Part shown: positions 9,277-21,706 of the stretch, in pieces
How positions within the stretch are numbered: position 1 is the stretch's first letter
Layout: each line of letters starts with the position of its first letter
NCBI RefSeq assembly: GCF_023167545.1
Contig: NZ_AP014647.1
Location: 1,302,001 to 1,366,000 of the forward strand
Direction of reading: 5' to 3'
DNA from: Streptococcus constellatus subsp. constellatus
GTDB lineage: Bacteria > Bacillota > Bacilli > Lactobacillales > Streptococcaceae
DNA length: 64,000 bases
Made by a program: the position numbers and the translations under genes
The notes under the pieces: generated by a model
Told to the model about the DNA's origin: nothing
The model's database searches: none
Seen by the model: the letters and a program-made list of their open reading frames with translations, nothing else

Positions 9277-10242
9277 TTAATTATTTAGTACAACCACTTT
9301 ACCAAATCCCGCTTGACTTTCGATATAAGAATGGGCTGCTGGGATTTGCTCTAACGAAAAGATTCGTTGAGGAGATACATTGATTTTATAAGCATCAATA
9401 TAGCTAAAAAGTTCATCAATAAGCTGCTGATGCACATTTCCTGAATAAAAACTAGTCAAATAACTATTGTTTCTTATTTCTACGATTGGATCAAACTCCT
9501 CTACATACCATTTGCCACCTAATTGACCAGTGTTACAGATAATTCCTGCACTTTGAATATGGTCAAATGAATTTTTTAGAGTAGCCGGACCGACTAATTC
9601 AAGGATTTTATCAAACTTTTCCTCAGTTTGCAAAACTCCTCTTTCATCTAAAATAATTTCATCAAAGCCTTGCTGTTGAAGCAAATCTTTTTTAGCAAGA
9701 GAACGAACTGCACCAACTACACGATTCTGTGGGAATTGCGCCTTTACTAACTTTAAAAAGGCTAACCCAACACCACTCGTTGCAGCTCGGACTAAGATTG
9801 AGTCTCCCTCTTTTATCTGCATATTTTTGAAGGAGCCAAAAGCAGTATAGTAGGTCTCCGGTATTGCTGCTAATTCCGCCCAAGATAATTGACTGTCTAC
9901 AGGGTAAATCTGCTCATTTGGAAGTAATACATATTCAGCATAAGAATCGTCATACGCACGTCCCATTTTGCCCATAATAGAAACAATTTTTTACCCTTCC
10001 TGCAAATCTCTCCTTGTCGTTTCAACTACTTGTCCTACACACTCAATTCCTAAAATACGAGGGAATTGAACAGTTGGAGATAGACCTTTCCGAGTAAAAA
10101 TTTCTGAATGATTGATACCAAAACCTTTGATTTTGACTAAGGTCCATCCTTCTTTTACAGATGGGATAGCTCGTTCTTCTAGAACAAATTTCTCTGGACC
10201 GCCTGGCTCATAAATCACCATTGCTTTCATTTTATTTCTCAT
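9277..10242 (-). pseudogene. Zinc-type alcohol dehydrogenase / quinone oxidoreductase, interrupted by one nonsense codon
   Basis: An MDR-superfamily NADPH:quinone oxidoreductase-like gene of 321 codons. The N-terminal GroES-like part (about 83 codons from the ATG at 10242, which has AGGAGG eight bases upstream) ends at an in-frame TAA, 9991-9993. The same frame then continues without shift through the Rossmann part, including VRAATSGVGLAF. At the break the codons read ...CAG GAA GGG TAA AAA ATT GTT..., consistent with CAA changed to TAA. Family sequences run straight through this point. Either a recent nonsense mutation or a base-calling error. It follows proV by 38 bases, possibly in the same transcript. 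Confidence 0.85.
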
Positions 10243-10280
10243 TAGTTAAACCTCCTATTCCCTATTCGCAAACATAGATT

Positions 10281-11000
10281 TTAACTAGCTAATTCGAGCA
10301 ATTTTCTTACAAATTCATTAGCTGGCTGTTGTTTGATTTCCTCTGGTGTACCGTATTGCTGAATTTGTCCCTTGTCTAAAACGAGGATTTGTGTCCCTAA
10401 TTTCAAGGCCTCTGCTATATCATGCGTAATAAACACGACTGTAATACCTGTATCTTCATGCAGTAATTTTAATTCATGCTGTAACTGATAGCGCGTAATA
10501 GCATCCACTGCTCCAAAAGGCTCATCCATTAGCAAAATATTAGGAGTTGCAGCTAATGCACGTGCAATCCCAACTCGTTGAGCCTGTCCACCAGAAAGAG
10601 CTGCAGGATAGCGTCTTTTTAACTGAGTATCCAGGCCAAGCATAGTCAGCTTTTCGTCAATGACTCTCTCTATTTCTATCTGATTTTTCTTTTGTAAATT
10701 TAAGACAAAGGCAATATTTTCAGCGACTGTTAAATGTGGAAAAAGTCCATTCCCTTGAATTGAATAACCGATGTTACGCCGCAATTCAATCAAATCTGTT
10801 TCTTGAACATCTTGTCCATTGATAAGAATTTCCCCTTGACTCGGTTTGACTAAACCATTTATCATCTTTAACAATGTCGTTTTACCTGAACCAGAAGTTC
10901 CTACAATCGTCAGAAAGGCACCGTCTTCAATTTTCAAATCCAATTGTTTAATAATGTCTTGATTTCCATATGATTTACTGACATTTTTATATTCAATCAT
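10281..11000 (-). CDS. proV: Osmoprotectant/choline ABC transporter ATP-binding protein
   Basis: A 239 aa ABC ATPase energising uptake of a quaternary amine (glycine betaine or choline). Walker A GTSGSGKTT at about 34-42, Q-loop near 82, signature LSGGQAQR near 136, Walker B ILLMDEPFGAVD near 156 and the switch His in FITHD near 191 are all present. It is the ProV/OpuCA type without C-terminal CBS domains. The ATG overlaps the proWX stop by four bases (ATGA). The order marR-proWX-proV matches the pneumococcal choline uptake operon. Confidence 0.9.
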   Translation of the reverse strand: MIEYKNVSKSYGNQDIIKQLDLKIEDGAFLTIVGTSGSGKTTLLKMINGLVKPSQGEILINGQDVQETDLIELRRNIGYSIQGNGLFPHLTVAENIAFVLNLQKKNQIEIERVIDEKLTMLGLDTQLKRRYPAALSGGQAQRVGIARALAATPNILLMDEPFGAVDAITRYQLQHELKLLHEDTGITVVFITHDIAEALKLGTQILVLDKGQIQQYGTPEEIKQQPANEFVRKLLELAS

Positions 11001-15988: not shown

Positions 15989-16007
15989 AAAATCATATTC
16001 CTTTCTA

Positions 16008-16613
16008 TCAACGTTTTTCAATAATCTCATCCACTGGCAAACGATAGCTTGGATCCAGTTTATCATCTGTGTAGCCAACAGTAATTAAAAGTTCTGGACG
16101 GAAGCGCTCATCAATATCTAACACTTGATTGACTTTTGACTTATCAAATCCAAGGATAATATTGGAACTAATGCCCTGGTCAGTCAATGCCAACACTAAA
16201 TTCATAGCTACCAATCCAGCATTAAGAGCTAAATAATCACTCTTTTGCTGTTCGGTGTAATGACTGTACTGAATCGGAAGATTTTGCATGTAATATTGCA
16301 ATTTTTCTTCAGACATATTTTTTATACCAGCAGTACGAGCAATCTTACGAGCGCGCTGCACCAAGTCTGTATCTGTAAAGAGAGCAATCGTCACAGGCGC
16401 TTCTTTGATTTGCTCCTGATTAGCATTAAAGGCAATCTCAGCCAAGTCTGCATTTCTCTCACGCACAACTACAAATTTCCAAGGCTGGCTATTATGAGCA
16501 CTTGGCGCTAAAGTTGCAATTTCAATCGCCATTCGCACATCTTTTGGATCAACTGCTTTATCATTGAAATGTTTAGTTGCATGACGCTTTTTATTTAATT
16601 CAAGAAATTTCAT
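16008..16613 (-). CDS. Nitroreductase family FMN-dependent oxidoreductase
   Basis: A 201 aa enzyme of the NfsB/YdjA-type fold that uses FMN and NAD(P)H. The N-terminal RHATKHFNDK contains the FMN-phosphate arginine/histidine pattern; SAHNSQPWKF binds flavin; GISSNIILGFD is the C-terminal ribityl region. The ATG at 16613 has AAAGGAAA upstream and TATAAT about 30 bases before. It is the upstream partner of pepV, as in other streptococci. Physiological substrate unknown. Confidence 0.9.
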   Translation of the reverse strand: MKFLELNKKRHATKHFNDKAVDPKDVRMAIEIATLAPSAHNSQPWKFVVVRERNADLAEIAFNANQEQIKEAPVTIALFTDTDLVQRARKIARTAGIKNMSEEKLQYYMQNLPIQYSHYTEQQKSDYLALNAGLVAMNLVLALTDQGISSNIILGFDKSKVNQVLDIDERFRPELLITVGYTDDKLDPSYRLPVDEIIEKR

Positions 16614-16717
16614 AAGGACTTTCCTTTTCTTATTATACTCATTCCATTTTACCATAAATTGGAAGAGCTTGCAGGGGGTTGAGTAAAATACTCCAACAAA
16701 ATCCTACTGCTCTAACT

Positions 16718-18442
16718 CTATTTTTTATTGTTCTCTTCAATCATTTTTTTAACTTGCATACGTTGTTGAACATTAAGGTTAAGTTGATTCAATTGCTTAT
16801 CAATGCTGGACTCCTCTGTCTTATACTTCTTATCATACATCTCTAATAATTTATTACGAAGAATAGGCTCGCTGATCAAATGAATTTCTCTTAATAGTTT
16901 CTCGTCTTCGTTTCCTTCCTGTTTCTCTTCTCCGTTTAGTCTATCAATCATAGAATTAATCTTTGCTAAGGCAAAATCACCATAAATGTTATCAATCAAA
17001 TTTTCCTTCATGATTTCTTGGATATTCTTAGCGAAAGTGTTTTGAAGAACTTTACCTTCTGAATATCCAGTTTCTTGATTCTTTTCAAGCATAATCACAT
17101 TTCCTGGTTTAATATCCGAAAGCATGTAGGGAGAGTGGGTTGTGAAGACAAGCTGTAAACTTACATCTTCTCGCTGTCCTTTTCTTTTCAAGAACTCAAT
17201 AAAATTATCAATTAATTTTCGAGACCATTCTAAATGCATTCCCATTTCTATTTCATCAATTAAAAAAATGTAGTCTTTGATATCATTAAACTGTTGTTGA
17301 GAAAACAGGGCATTTGAAAACAATCTGATGAAATTTATTTCACCTGCTGACATACAGAAAGAATCAAAATTTAAAATACTTAATCCTAGATGTAAGTACC
17401 TATTTAAAAATTCACAAAGTGAATCAAATTTTTTACAAATTTTTAAAAAATTTTGATTTTGTGATAAATCTCGTGGAAACTCTACTATTATTTTTTCGTT
17501 TTCTATGCCTATAATATAATTCTTAAAAAGGAATAAAACGCTAGAAATCCTCTGAAAAACTTCAAAAAAATTTACATCATAAAACCCTTCTTTCAATAAA
17601 TAAAAATCATCTAAGTCCTTCATTTTATTTTCATAAAATTTAATATCTGATTCCCAATCATCTTTATCTTCAGATTTATAATCAGCAATTTGTGCCAATA
17701 TTGAATCTAATACAACAAGACTTTCACCTTTTTCTTTATTAGTCGCCCTTAGTGTGTCAAATATTTTATCTCTAATATTTGTAATTAAGGTTAAACAAAC
17801 TTCTTTAATAAGTTCTTTCTTATTAAAGAGAGCTTGAGTTAATGAATCAGGAGAAAAATAGGATCTAGTTAATGAAATTTTAAATTTAAAATCAGAAAAA
17901 ATTTCTTTACTATAAAACTCAGAATAGACTCTATAATAATTTTCTAACGGAGACCAATTAGCTTCCATTCCTACGGTATTATTATCTACCAACCCAGATC
18001 CACCTCCAAAAGATTGATTGTGCAAATTAAAGTAACTTATTACAGTGTTCACATTTATTTCTTGAGGTAATCCATCATCGCCATTAATTTCAAAGTTCTC
18101 ATTCTCTCGTACAGTCATATTATATTGTTTGACTTTGAATTTTTCATTATCCTTAAATACTTTAAAATAGGAATTATTATTGTTTAAATGAGAATCTGAA
18201 TTTTGTGTTACATATTTTATCAATTCCAATAAAGTTGATTTCCCAGTCCCATTTATCCCAACTATTGGTGAAATATTATAAATAGACTCTCCATAAAAGT
18301 TTTCAATATAATCTGGATTTTTATCAATTTTTAATTCATTCGTTTCAAAGTTAAAATCAACTTTATATTCGTCTGAAAAATTAAAAATCTGCTCTTTAAA
18401 AAGCTTATCATACTGCTTAATAACCAAAGCAATTAATTTCAT
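16718..18442 (-). CDS. ABC-type AAA ATPase, PtuA-like, partner of the HNH nuclease (candidate defence ATPase)
   Basis: A 574 aa RecF/SMC-like ABC ATPase. Walker A GINGTGKST lies at 62-70, an ABC-signature-like MSAGEIN at 364-370, Walker B YIFLIDEIEMG at 391-401 and the H-loop TTHSPYM at 434-440; the middle 200 residues are a helical insertion. Such OLD/PtuA-type ATPases act with nucleases in anti-phage systems. The ATG overlaps the HNH stop codon by four bases (ATGA), so the two are translationally coupled. No TOPRIM domain is seen, unlike OLD nucleases. Base composition is visibly more AT-rich than in pepV or uvrC on either side, which suggests transfer. Best fit: Septu-like ATPase with gene order reversed from canonical ptuA-ptuB. 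Confidence 0.85.
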   Translation of the reverse strand: MKLIALVIKQYDKLFKEQIFNFSDEYKVDFNFETNELKIDKNPDYIENFYGESIYNISPIVGINGTGKSTLLELIKYVTQNSDSHLNNNNSYFKVFKDNEKFKVKQYNMTVRENENFEINGDDGLPQEINVNTVISYFNLHNQSFGGGSGLVDNNTVGMEANWSPLENYYRVYSEFYSKEIFSDFKFKISLTRSYFSPDSLTQALFNKKELIKEVCLTLITNIRDKIFDTLRATNKEKGESLVVLDSILAQIADYKSEDKDDWESDIKFYENKMKDLDDFYLLKEGFYDVNFFEVFQRISSVLFLFKNYIIGIENEKIIVEFPRDLSQNQNFLKICKKFDSLCEFLNRYLHLGLSILNFDSFCMSAGEINFIRLFSNALFSQQQFNDIKDYIFLIDEIEMGMHLEWSRKLIDNFIEFLKRKGQREDVSLQLVFTTHSPYMLSDIKPGNVIMLEKNQETGYSEGKVLQNTFAKNIQEIMKENLIDNIYGDFALAKINSMIDRLNGEEKQEGNEDEKLLREIHLISEPILRNKLLEMYDKKYKTEESSIDKQLNQLNLNVQQRMQVKKMIEENNKK

Positions 18443-19416
18443 TGCTCTCCTCCTATCAATCCAATTTCTTTACTAATATCTGTAACCATTTTTGAAAGTG
18501 GTCTTTTCCCATAATTTTCTTTATCTGTGTAGTGACCTGTTATAAAGCGATTCAACTCAGCTTTTCTCAATTCATGATTTGTTTGATTTAAGATTTTTGA
18601 CAAACCATCTCTATAACTATCTGTATATACTTCTTTTTTCCAAATCAATTCATTTACTACATCAATGTGACTTTGATATAGCTCCTCTATACCCAAAATA
18701 CGAATTCCATTTTTAAAGTCAATATTACGAGAATTAATTTTGATTTTAATCTCATCGACAGACTTTGGAATGTATGTAAACTTTACATCATCGAATGGAA
18801 AACTAGTATCATAGGGACTATATTCTAAACCCTTATTTGATTTCACATGATTACAGCTATAACAACTAGGAATTAAATTGTAAAATGAAACGGAAAACAG
18901 TGGATAGCTGTCTTTTGGAAAAAAGTGGTCTAGTTGAGCAGTGTTTACTACTTTAGTCTGACCGTTAATCTCTTGTTTGCAATATCGACATTCTTTTTCA
19001 GCCTCATCAATTACTAATAATTCTTGACTACAATTATTACAATGAAGTACTTTATATGTTGAGTTTATATAATTACGATTGCAATACGGGCATACCGAAA
19101 CGTTCTTTAAATCAATTATTTTCTTCCTTAATCTCGAATCTATCTTTCCATAGGATTTTTTTAAATACTCTGTTAATTTAGGTTCATTAACGATAAAATT
19201 ATCCAAAAATTTTTTACATTCCTCTAAAAATAAATACTCCGCAGACATTATCTTTAGAAAAGCATCCTTTTCACTCTCAAGTCCTGGTATATTATCTGTG
19301 ACCCATTTATTTAATTCATTTTTAAATTCAGGATAATCTTGAAAATTCATTTTTCTATATAATGCCAAGCAAATTTTTTCAACTTCAGACGGATTTGATT
19401 TTTCTATAGGTATCAT
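18439..19416 (-). CDS. HNH endonuclease with inserted zinc ribbon, PtuB-like (candidate defence nuclease)
   Basis: A 325 aa protein. A helical N-terminus (1-105) leads into an HNH domain: CPYC 109-112, the catalytic LDHFFPK 162-168 (H164), N180, and CYSCN 185-189. Between the two HNH zinc half-sites lies a second CxxC pair, CNNC 126-129 and CRYC 143-146, looking like an extra zinc ribbon. The C-terminus is helical. ATG at 19416 has GGAGAG seven bases upstream; a longer TTG candidate lies inside the promoter -10 and cannot be translated. It is first in a two-gene operon with the ATPase. HNH plus ABC-ATPase is the signature of Septu; target and trigger are unknown. Confidence 0.85.
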   Translation of the reverse strand: MIPIEKSNPSEVEKICLALYRKMNFQDYPEFKNELNKWVTDNIPGLESEKDAFLKIMSAEYLFLEECKKFLDNFIVNEPKLTEYLKKSYGKIDSRLRKKIIDLKNVSVCPYCNRNYINSTYKVLHCNNCSQELLVIDEAEKECRYCKQEINGQTKVVNTAQLDHFFPKDSYPLFSVSFYNLIPSCYSCNHVKSNKGLEYSPYDTSFPFDDVKFTYIPKSVDEIKIKINSRNIDFKNGIRILGIEELYQSHIDVVNELIWKKEVYTDSYRDGLSKILNQTNHELRKAELNRFITGHYTDKENYGKRPLSKMVTDISKEIGLIGGEQ

Positions 19417-19449
19417 GATTGTCTCTCCATTCTGGCTCACTTCTTTCCC

Positions 19450-19481
19450 ATTATACCACAAAAGACCGTTTTCACAGTCTT
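19450..19481 (-). promoter_or_regulatory. uvrC terminator overlapping the promoter of the HNH-ATPase operon
   Basis: AAGAC (19462-19466) and GTCTT (19477-19481) form the uvrC terminator stem with a T run on the minus strand. An extended -10, TGGTATAAT, follows immediately (TATAAT at 19450-19455). Confidence 0.75.
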
Positions 19482-19533
19482 AGTTTATATATTAACTATC
19501 CAATTCTGCCAAAGGTTCTGCAACCTCTGGTAA

Positions 19534-21327
19534 TTATATTTCTTTCCGCTTGCCCAGTTCGTTCAACTTAGCCCGCACTGCCTCTGCCACTTTTCGCGGT
19601 ACGCCTACTTCGACAATTTCCTCAACACTTGCTTCTTTAATCTTAGTTAGCGATTTGAAATGCTTCATGAGATTTTGCTTGCGCTTAGGTCCCAAGCCTT
19701 CGATACCATCGAGTTGCGATGAGAAGGAATTCTTAGACCGGAGCTGGCGATGGAAGGTAATGGCAAAGCGGTGGACTTCATCTTGAATGCGTTGCAAAAG
19801 GAAAAATTCCTGTGAATTGCGAGATAATTCGACCACTTCCAACGGATCACCAAAAAGCAATTCATGAGTCTGATGCTTGTCGTTCTTTTGCAAACCAGCG
19901 ATAGGAATATCTAAGCCTAACTGATTTTGAATGACGTCTTTTGCAATATTGACTTGACCTTGGCCACCATCAATGACAATCAGATCAGGCGGTAGTAAAC
20001 CATCTCGCATGACTCGGCTATAACGGCGCTTAATCACTTCTCGCATACTGGCATAGTCATCCGGACCGATAACTGTCTTAATCTTATACTTGCGATAATC
20101 TTTTTTGCTGGGTTTGCCATTGATAAAAACCACCATAGCTGAAACAGGGCTTGTTCCCATAATATTGGAATTATCAAACGACTCAATCCGAACTGGAGTG
20201 GGAATATTGAGGAGCCGGCCTAGATTTTCAATTGCTCCTTGCGTTTTTTCAATAGATTTCTCTAATAAGTCAAACTTCTGCTGTAAACTAACTTGAGCAT
20301 TCTTAATTGCCAGATTGACCAGCTGTTTCTTTTCTCCTCGTTGAGGCTTAAGGATTTTTGTATCCACCACAGCCCGTACTGATTCCTCGTCAATATCAGA
20401 TGGAATCAAAATTTCATTGGGCACCAGATGAGATTTATTCTGATAAAATTGTCCAATATAAGTCAAAAAATCCTCGTCAGGGTCATTGTAATAAGGAAAC
20501 ATATTTACATCTCGCTCAATGAGTTTTCCTTGACGGACAAAGAAAACCTGCACACACATCCATCCTTTGTCCACATAATAGCCAAAGACATCCCGATTCT
20601 GTAAATCCCTTGCCATCACTCGTTGCTTGGTGCGAAGTGTCGCAATACTTTGAAGCAAATCTCGGTATTCAGCCGCTTTTTCAAATTCCATCTTTTCAGC
20701 AGCACTAGTCATTTTTCCTTTCAATTCATCAATAATCTTATTATCATGACCTTTGAGGAAATCTGCTACTTCTTGAGCCATCTCTTGAAAGAAATGTGGA
20801 TCATTATGGCAGATAGTATGAGCTCGACACTGTCCGATATGATAGTAGAAGCAAACTTTCTCAGGTGGATTGGTACACTTTCGGAAAGGGAAAATGCGAT
20901 CCAGTAGGCGCTTAATTTCATTCGCAGCACCTACATCAGGATACGGGCCAAAATATAAACCACTATCTTTCTTAACCTGACGTGTGATTATAAGCCGCGG
21001 ATATGTCTCATTGGTAATTTTGATAAAAGGATAGGACTTATCGTCCTTAAGCATGATGTTGTATTTGGGTTGATTTTCCTTGATAAGATTGATTTCAAGC
21101 AACAAAGCTTCAATATTAGACTCAGTGACAATAAACTCAAAATCCTCAACCTCAGACACTAACGCTTCCGTTTTAGTATCATGACTTCCGCGAAAATACG
21201 AGCGCACCCGATTGCGCAGATTCTTAGCTTTTCCTACATAGATGATCGTACCATTTTTATCCTTGTGGATATAACAGCCTGGGCTAGTCGGCAATAACTC
21301 TAATTTTGATTTAATTAAGTTGTTCAT
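19534..21327 (-). CDS. uvrC: Excinuclease ABC subunit UvrC
   Basis: A 597 aa nucleotide-excision-repair nuclease that makes both incisions at UvrB-bound lesions. The GIY-YIG domain is at about 10-95 (GCYIHKD...[18 protein letters not shown]), followed by a Cys-rich linker, the UVR motif near 200 ([15 protein letters not shown]), the RNase H-like endonuclease domain ([18 protein letters not shown]) and a C-terminal helix-hairpin-helix pair ([19 protein letters not shown]). ATG at 21327 is chosen because the -10 TATAAT ends seven bases before it; there is no Shine-Dalgarno, which suggests a leaderless message. Confidence 0.95.
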
Positions 21328-21706
21328 AATTATCATTATAGCAAAATTAGCTAAAAGGAAGTAAAAAGGAACATCGACAGCCTAAATGATTACTATAGAA
21401 AAGGGCAAGCAAATAAATATTAAAAATTTTAAGCCCATAGCTTCACTATCACAAGGTTTAAATAGGTTATTAGAAGTATACTTTAGGTTGTAGATAGAAT
21501 AAATCTGTTTTCATTGAGTATTTCTCCAGATTTACAAAACGAACAAAAGGTTGACTTGCTCCGCAATTTTTCCTACTACTTTTTAATAATTGGCTATTGT
21601 ATCAAAATTTTTTGCTATCACAAAGAAAGGCAGGGATGCTACTATCCCTGCCTTTCCATCATCAACACTACAATTGTCCTCGTTGACAATAGTTTCTGTT
21701 GTGATA
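21328..21706. other. Intergenic stretch between uvrC and ptsI
   Basis: No supported gene. It holds the uvrC extended -10 promoter (TGC-TATAAT at 21335-21340 on the minus strand) and the ptsI terminator. The AT-rich middle (21360-21600) shows nothing I recognise. Confidence 0.6.
21623..21656 (-). terminator. ptsHI terminator
   Basis: GGCAGGGAT (21630-21638) pairs with ATCCCTGCC (21645-21653), flanked by A/T runs; strong on the minus strand. Confidence 0.9.

Follow-up and report, generated by a model that had tools for sequence, protein, structure and literature searches.

Positions 1,302,001-1,366,000 of contig NZ_AP014647.1 (GCF_023167545.1) of Streptococcus constellatus subsp. constellatus, a stretch of 64,000 nucleotides (nt) that is called the window below, carry between uvrC and a nitroreductase gene a compact pair of genes for an HNH nuclease and an ABC/SMC-like ATPase. 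The pair belongs to PDC-M62, a candidate defence family, and parts of both genes look like cassettes exchanged between streptococci. All window features given here lie on the reverse strand. The HNH gene (18439..19416, 325 amino acids (aa), a short-type allele of the PDC-M62B / PtuB-like kind) comes first, and its stop codon overlaps the start of the ATPase gene (16718..18442, 574 aa, PDC-M62A / PtuA-like, core type A) in an ATGA at 18439..18442. An earlier interpretation made from the letters alone (the sequence-only reading) had given this arrangement with exact coordinates, and the motifs it named were all located in the translations: LDHFFPK (aa 162) and CYSC (185) in the HNH protein, which also has CPYC (109), and GINGTGKS (62), SAGE (365), LIDEIE (394) and TTHSPYM (434) in the ATPase. 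Further CxxC pairs at aa 126 and 143 of the HNH protein fall in an extra CxxC...CxxC insert (aa ~120-156) that short HNH proteins have within the HNH region. Among 18 aligned ATPases the Walker A, S-x-G-E and DE residues are invariant and the H-switch histidine (H436) is kept in 17, the sole exception being locus L045 with TTYSP instead of TTHSP.

Ahead of the HNH gene, at 19450..19479, a stem-loop (19464-19479) and TTTTG are followed by the extended -10 sequence TGGTATAAT (19450-19458), which the sequence-only reading had assigned to the pair as its own. The arrangement is conserved in copies at the uvrC site: a stem-loop with TGNTATAAT is present in 9 of 12 such copies, with differing stem sequences and kept pairing, and L037-L039 have a different leader without it. 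No terminator was called at the stem-loop by a scanner whose rule requires five T. From sequence, the stem-loop and extended -10 are likely the promoter of the pair. At locus L036 a 201-aa open reading frame (ORF; 10164-10769) separates uvrC from the stem-loop, which suggests that the stem-loop moves with the module rather than with uvrC.

The housekeeping neighbours were named correctly, since the ORF map and Pfam agree on uvrC (19534..21336), the anchor gene of the insertion site, on the nitroreductase of the downstream flank (16008..16613) and, by Pfam, on the M20 peptidase pepV. The pair is also more AT-rich than its flanks, with a guanine plus cytosine content of 28.0% against 40.4% in uvrC, 38.3% in the nitroreductase gene and 36.9% in the window. 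The six flanking genes (MarR regulator, UDG, NmrA-like protein, peptidase, nitroreductase and uvrC by Pfam) include no integrase or transposase in the Pfam search and, as had been read, no reverse transcriptase in PADLOC and reverse-transcriptase Pfam scans; an Rfam scan of 16000-20000 gave no RNA match. A type I-A retron, which would have a reverse transcriptase and an msDNA RNA beside PtuAB, is rejected on these scans of the six flanking genes and of 16000-20000.

Profile searches place the pair in PDC-M62. Its ATPase matches the PADLOC profile PDC-M62A best (4.7e-55; next outside M62, AbiLi at 3.5e-18) and its HNH protein PDC-M62B (1.8e-41; next, PDC-M01B at 5.1e-14), and the same profiles are matched by 18/18 aligned ATPases and 19/19 aligned HNH proteins. 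The neighbourhood fits as well, with the ATGA overlap here and an ATPase beside the HNH gene in most relatives (below). The sequence-only reading had proposed a Septu subtype or a separate ATPase-HNH defence family; as a statement of homology this holds, given the PDC-M62 profile matches, the PtuB-like predicted fold of the HNH protein and the possible likeness in topology of the ATPase model to PtuA, and the best profile matches are to PDC-M62 and not to a characterised non-defence family. One correction is that the family is already catalogued as a candidate (PADLOC-DB 2.0.0).

That the pair is simply Septu, a divergent true PtuAB with flipped gene order for which PDC-M62 is merely a label, is unlikely in our judgement, even though it has the best claim among the alternatives. 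Weaker but significant PADLOC matches to PtuA (7.6e-17) and PtuB (1.6e-11) speak for it, and so do the structural matches. For the ATPase model, all 43 Foldseek matches in the PDB at E<=0.001 are retron I-A or Septu PtuA(B) entries, and the HNH model matches PtuB in a second look with VIA-align only; the predicted HNH fold resembles PtuB, and the ATPase model may resemble PtuA in topology. The curated scores point the other way. The ATPase reaches 30.3 bits against NCBIfam PtuA NF041760 (cut-off 500), a strict test since this is a model of retron Ec78, and the HNH protein falls under the cut-offs of TIGR02646 (20.1 vs 52.15 bits) and PtuB NF041761 (19.0 vs 150 bits). For reference PtuB loci, the PADLOC PtuB1 model PDLC00345 matched only 1/250 Bacilli genomes (L213), too few, so TIGR02646 was used; it found 12 loci in 9/299 genomes, of which 8 exceed the family cut-off and 4 fall short of it. 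Together with L213 these make 13, and as L213 and L220 are the same place, 12 are distinct. All 12 are ATPase-first, as opposed to HNH-first here, and a branch with 100% SH-aLRT support splits them from all PDC-M62B proteins in the HNH tree, subject to a long-branch warning for PtuB. The window family's HNH profile also picks up one reference, L225 (1.4e-14), and the border between PDC-M62 and Septu is therefore not sharp. In the B. cereus group, the available part of one report has 203 PDC-M62 calls coinciding with Septu calls (PMC11811056), which would also suit a true PtuAB. A survey of defence loci in S. thermophilus makes no mention of Septu in its accessible portion.

HNH relatives were found 103 times in the species-genome collection (79 distinct loci kept), spanning Streptococcus, Paenibacillus, Lachnospiraceae, Clostridium, Campylobacterota, Bacteroidota and others, and 11 times on viral contigs. 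Pairing was defined as an ATPase within 400 bp on the same strand, and by this rule an ATPase adjoins the HNH gene in 84 of the 90 loci (79 genomic and 11 viral), 71 ATPase-first and 13 HNH-first; the rule holds for 10 of the 11 viral loci, each with the ATPase gene first. Chance ORFs are thereby rejected. The six loci failing the rule comprise three at sequence ends (L193, L200, L206), two with the ATPase farther upstream (L147, L150) and one with none (L140); at L192 the ATPase match is a 102-aa fragment. In a quick tree of 108 HNH proteins (83 ATPase-first, 19 HNH-first, 6 of unknown order) HNH-first nests inside ATPase-first diversity, so that the reversed order is derived, and two changes of order are needed, one for 17 Streptococcus and one for 2 Paenibacillus proteins. 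The earlier description of the order as reversed was thus right about the HNH gene coming first, and is amended in that this order is derived, arising in a streptococcal branch and in the two Paenibacillus cases. Distant ATPase-first PDC-M62 pairs lie at other sites in S. suis, S. hillyeri and others (L049-L052, L195), with ATPases of up to 965 aa.

The pair is mobile and lies at or near uvrC in a minority of streptococci. Any HNH match at E<=0.001 occurs in 35 of 284 Streptococcus species genomes, and the pair lies at or near uvrC in 13 of the 284 (counted from maps). In ten genomes it adjoins uvrC or is separated from it by a single small ORF (G000, G263, G192, G158, G151, G241, G132, G088, G296, G146), and in three there are small genes upstream of it: G061, with uvrC on the same contig beyond a small-gene array; G058, with the HNH gene truncated by contig ends; and G254, with uvrC on another contig, where the site was read from the flank of metallophosphoesterase (MPE), nitroreductase and pepV. 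The closest relative found, G108 (uvrC 97%), has an empty site with a uvrC-nitroreductase gap of ~120 bp, and the sites of G043 and G089 (uvrC 94%) are likewise empty; in junction alignments, homology to these three resumes downstream of the pair at 16652..16674. Core-gene status at this site, which would have spoken against the sequence-only reading, is rejected on these empty sites. MPE (by Pfam) directly follows uvrC in 28 of 40 further genomes, which were picked among those without a close HNH match at uvrC, so the absence of the pair there is by construction.

Fourfold sites separate the history of the pair from that of uvrC. Window uvrC is 36-41% identical at such sites to eight other species, whereas the HNH segments are 69-100% identical in the seven of these species that have the short HNH (10-37 sites per segment); the near relative L040 has the opposite pattern, 67% in uvrC and 18-57% in the HNH body. 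The pair has therefore moved from species to species. The anchor of the site is uvrC and not the gene downstream: at L037, as at L114 and L121, genes that read like rsmH/ftsL/pbp2X (names by reading) follow uvrC in place of the nitroreductase, and L037 still has the pair right after uvrC. Insertions seem to enter at the uvrC 3' end generally. At L083-L086, L089, L090, L119 and L047, uvrC is followed by long arrays of small genes (~100-200 aa); of three L083 array genes scanned, one is SUKH/SMI1-KNR4, a family known for toxin-immunity genes, and the other two match nothing. At L081 (G234, 227-2385) uvrC itself is in two pieces (residues 4-255 and 262-596) ~400 bp apart, owing either to an insertion that split the gene or to a misassembly.

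Horizontal spread, empty sites, a nuclease effector and a compact cargo of promoter and two genes at a single site would also be expected of a selfish or toxin-antitoxin-like nuclease module, kept by addiction or by invasion of the uvrC site, for which phage defence is incidental. In the available part of its report, retron-Eco7 PtuAB arrests growth when expressed without partners (PMC11555353), in line with such a toxic module. There is no integrase or transposase among the six flanking genes, however, and at L040 (10020-11750) and L043 (7153-8992) the ATPase is interrupted into two open frames beside an open HNH frame, which is incompatible with addiction to an ATPase antitoxin. We consider this explanation quite improbable.

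The two genes are built as a mosaic, which could not be read from one sequence. Two segments look, from the alignments, like exchangeable cassettes: the HNH body (aa 1-282, 18571..19416), with short, long and G296-type alleles at the site, and the ATPase core (aa 73-430, 17153..18226), of type A here and B, C or D elsewhere. A first constant block between them (HNH aa 283-325 and ATPase aa 1-72, 18227..18570) has nt identities of 78-92% and 85-97% to other alleles. A second is the ATPase C-terminus (aa 431-574, 16718..17152), of which aa 434-500 are 93-99% identical across all types and aa 520-574 are 65-75% identical between types. Compared with the other types, the type A core is 43-45% identical in nt and 20-24% in aa. 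The nt identity profiles change in steps. Against L034 the window is 82-97% identical from the promoter through the HNH gene and the ATPase start, 35-57% in the core (one step at 70%) and 78-97% afterwards, tailing off at the end. Against the long-allele L047 the HNH body is 35-67% to about +880, the constant block then 87-100%, and the core mostly 58-88% with steps at 48% and 28%. Against L040 identity is 58-80% up to +940 and 80-100% beyond.

For clustering of the core, 174 proteins (among the matches listed, the best 120 per list) and 11 loci made 185, of which 9 without both ends were excluded. Among these listed matches, an identity cut of 35% divides the 176 cores into three discrete clusters (82, 59 and 35 members) and one of 50% into four, and proteins named S. 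anginosus fall in two of the core clusters. Where representatives of these three are compared, the cores share 23-25% identity and the two ends 80-87% and 97-98%. In 13 loci, 8 of the 12 possible combinations occur (types A, B, C and D beside the short HNH; A, B and D beside the long; A beside the G296-type), leaving out L041/L129, a distant HNH-first pair at another site. HNH alleles and core types thus combine freely, and the four-gamete test is satisfied. Fast divergence of the core by point mutation would agree with the signature and Walker B residues retained in all core types, and intermediate cores could exist beyond the matches listed; yet the stepwise profiles, a core at 43-45% nt between blocks mostly at 85-97%, the discreteness of the types among the listed matches and their free combination with HNH alleles led us to reject hypervariability of this kind, which we hold to be very unlikely. 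A DNA-repair pair functionally tied to uvrC is hardly credible, for although the pair adjoins uvrC and SMC/RecF-like ATPases act in repair, it is at or near uvrC in just 13 of the 284 genomes, has its own promoter-like site, and has relatives at other sites and on viral contigs.

We therefore favour, with a probability of about 0.72, the view that the two genes form a mobile phage-defence module, belong to the PDC-M62 candidate family and work like Septu or retron PtuAB. The PtuA-like ATPase would assemble with the PtuB-like HNH nuclease and hold the toxic nuclease quiet; on infection it would free or activate the nuclease, which would cut nucleic acid, DNA or a tRNA, and so halt phage growth. 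The control of nuclease by ATPase is proposed by analogy with PtuAB. In the accessible parts of two reports, Septu EcB88 cuts tRNA-Tyr and depends on Walker as well as HNH residues, retron-Eco7 PtuAB depletes tRNA-Tyr, and action on DNA is reported for other PtuAB (PMC13096335, PMC11555353). Several observations weigh against the proposal. The ATPase model is poor (pLDDT 64, TM ~0.2 to PtuA), which limits its structural match to topology, and plain Foldseek gave no PDB match for the HNH model (best E 1.7). No mechanism or anti-phage activity of any PDC-M62 member was found in the open literature searched, where one paper names the family, and the six flanking genes have no PADLOC match to other defence genes. 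Some copies may be inactive, in view of the interrupted ATPases and the tyrosine in L045. As for the mosaic, identity at silent sites of ATPase aa 520-574 is not clearly in excess (14-71% of 6-7 sites).

In oral streptococci the module resides mostly right after uvrC and would spread between species by homologous exchange, in which the ATPase core (signature, Walker B lobe and inserts) and the HNH body would be replaced as cassettes between the constant blocks. The ATPase N- and C-terminal ends and the C-terminal 43 aa of the HNH protein are constant whatever cassettes are present, and the simplest reading is that they are the ATPase-HNH docking surfaces; likewise, the exchanged core may carry trigger recognition, and a core swap would then alter what is sensed. 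More tentatively, at somewhat less than even odds, oral streptococci could have a combinatorial immune locus of the PtuAB-like kind. Through homologous exchange at a single chromosomal position, species would trade its sensor core (at least 4 types) and its nuclease body (at least 3 alleles), each independently of the other and with the docking ends held constant, and specificities of phage recognition and killing would in this way differ among populations. The locus offers a natural swap experiment on how Septu-like ATPases sense phage and on which residues dock the nuclease, with four cores between near-identical ends and the same cores beside different nucleases, and comparison of natural alleles could tell trigger from effector. 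PDC-M62, so far a database candidate in the literature found, gains a concrete test case, and the uvrC 3' end is marked as an exchange site for cargo in streptococci. The open literature searched yielded nothing on this site as a cargo site or on cassette exchange in Septu-like systems; as far as it reaches, what is new is that streptococci have an HNH-first branch at uvrC, in which ATPase core and HNH body appear to be exchanged independently.

Among known systems the nearest is PDC-M62 itself, whose profiles are the best matches of both window proteins and are matched by all aligned relatives; the streptococcal branch differs from it in being HNH-first, where most relatives are ATPase-first, and in the CxxC insert of the short HNH and the cassette exchange. 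Septu (PtuA and PtuB) is likewise a two-gene system of ATPase and HNH nuclease, with a PtuB fold as predicted here and a PtuA fold that the ATPase model may resemble in topology, but the window sequences score under the curated cut-offs, have the opposite gene order and lie on the other side of the HNH tree. Type I-A retrons (reverse transcriptase, msDNA and PtuAB; Ec78, Ec83) provide, in the chains of their complexes, the best structural matches, and differ in the reverse transcriptase and RNA that scans of the six flanking genes and of Rfam did not reveal here. PDC-M01 has in M01B a profile that matches the window HNH protein, far more weakly than M62B, and M01A is absent from the best 25 profiles listed for the ATPase. 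AbiL, PARIS and HEC-01 share the broad ATPase class (AbiLi as above, AriA 3.7e-15, HEC-01A 7.9e-11); the ATPase partner in AbiL and PARIS is a TOPRIM-type protein, whereas in the window it is an HNH nuclease. The proposed PtuXYZ locus, in the available part of its description, also joins a PtuA-like ATPase to nuclease partners, but has three genes, with DUF262 and PIN/BECR proteins and without a PtuB-like HNH (PMC11980606). For the proposed combinatorial swapping, the likeness is to type I restriction with its exchanged specificity subunits.
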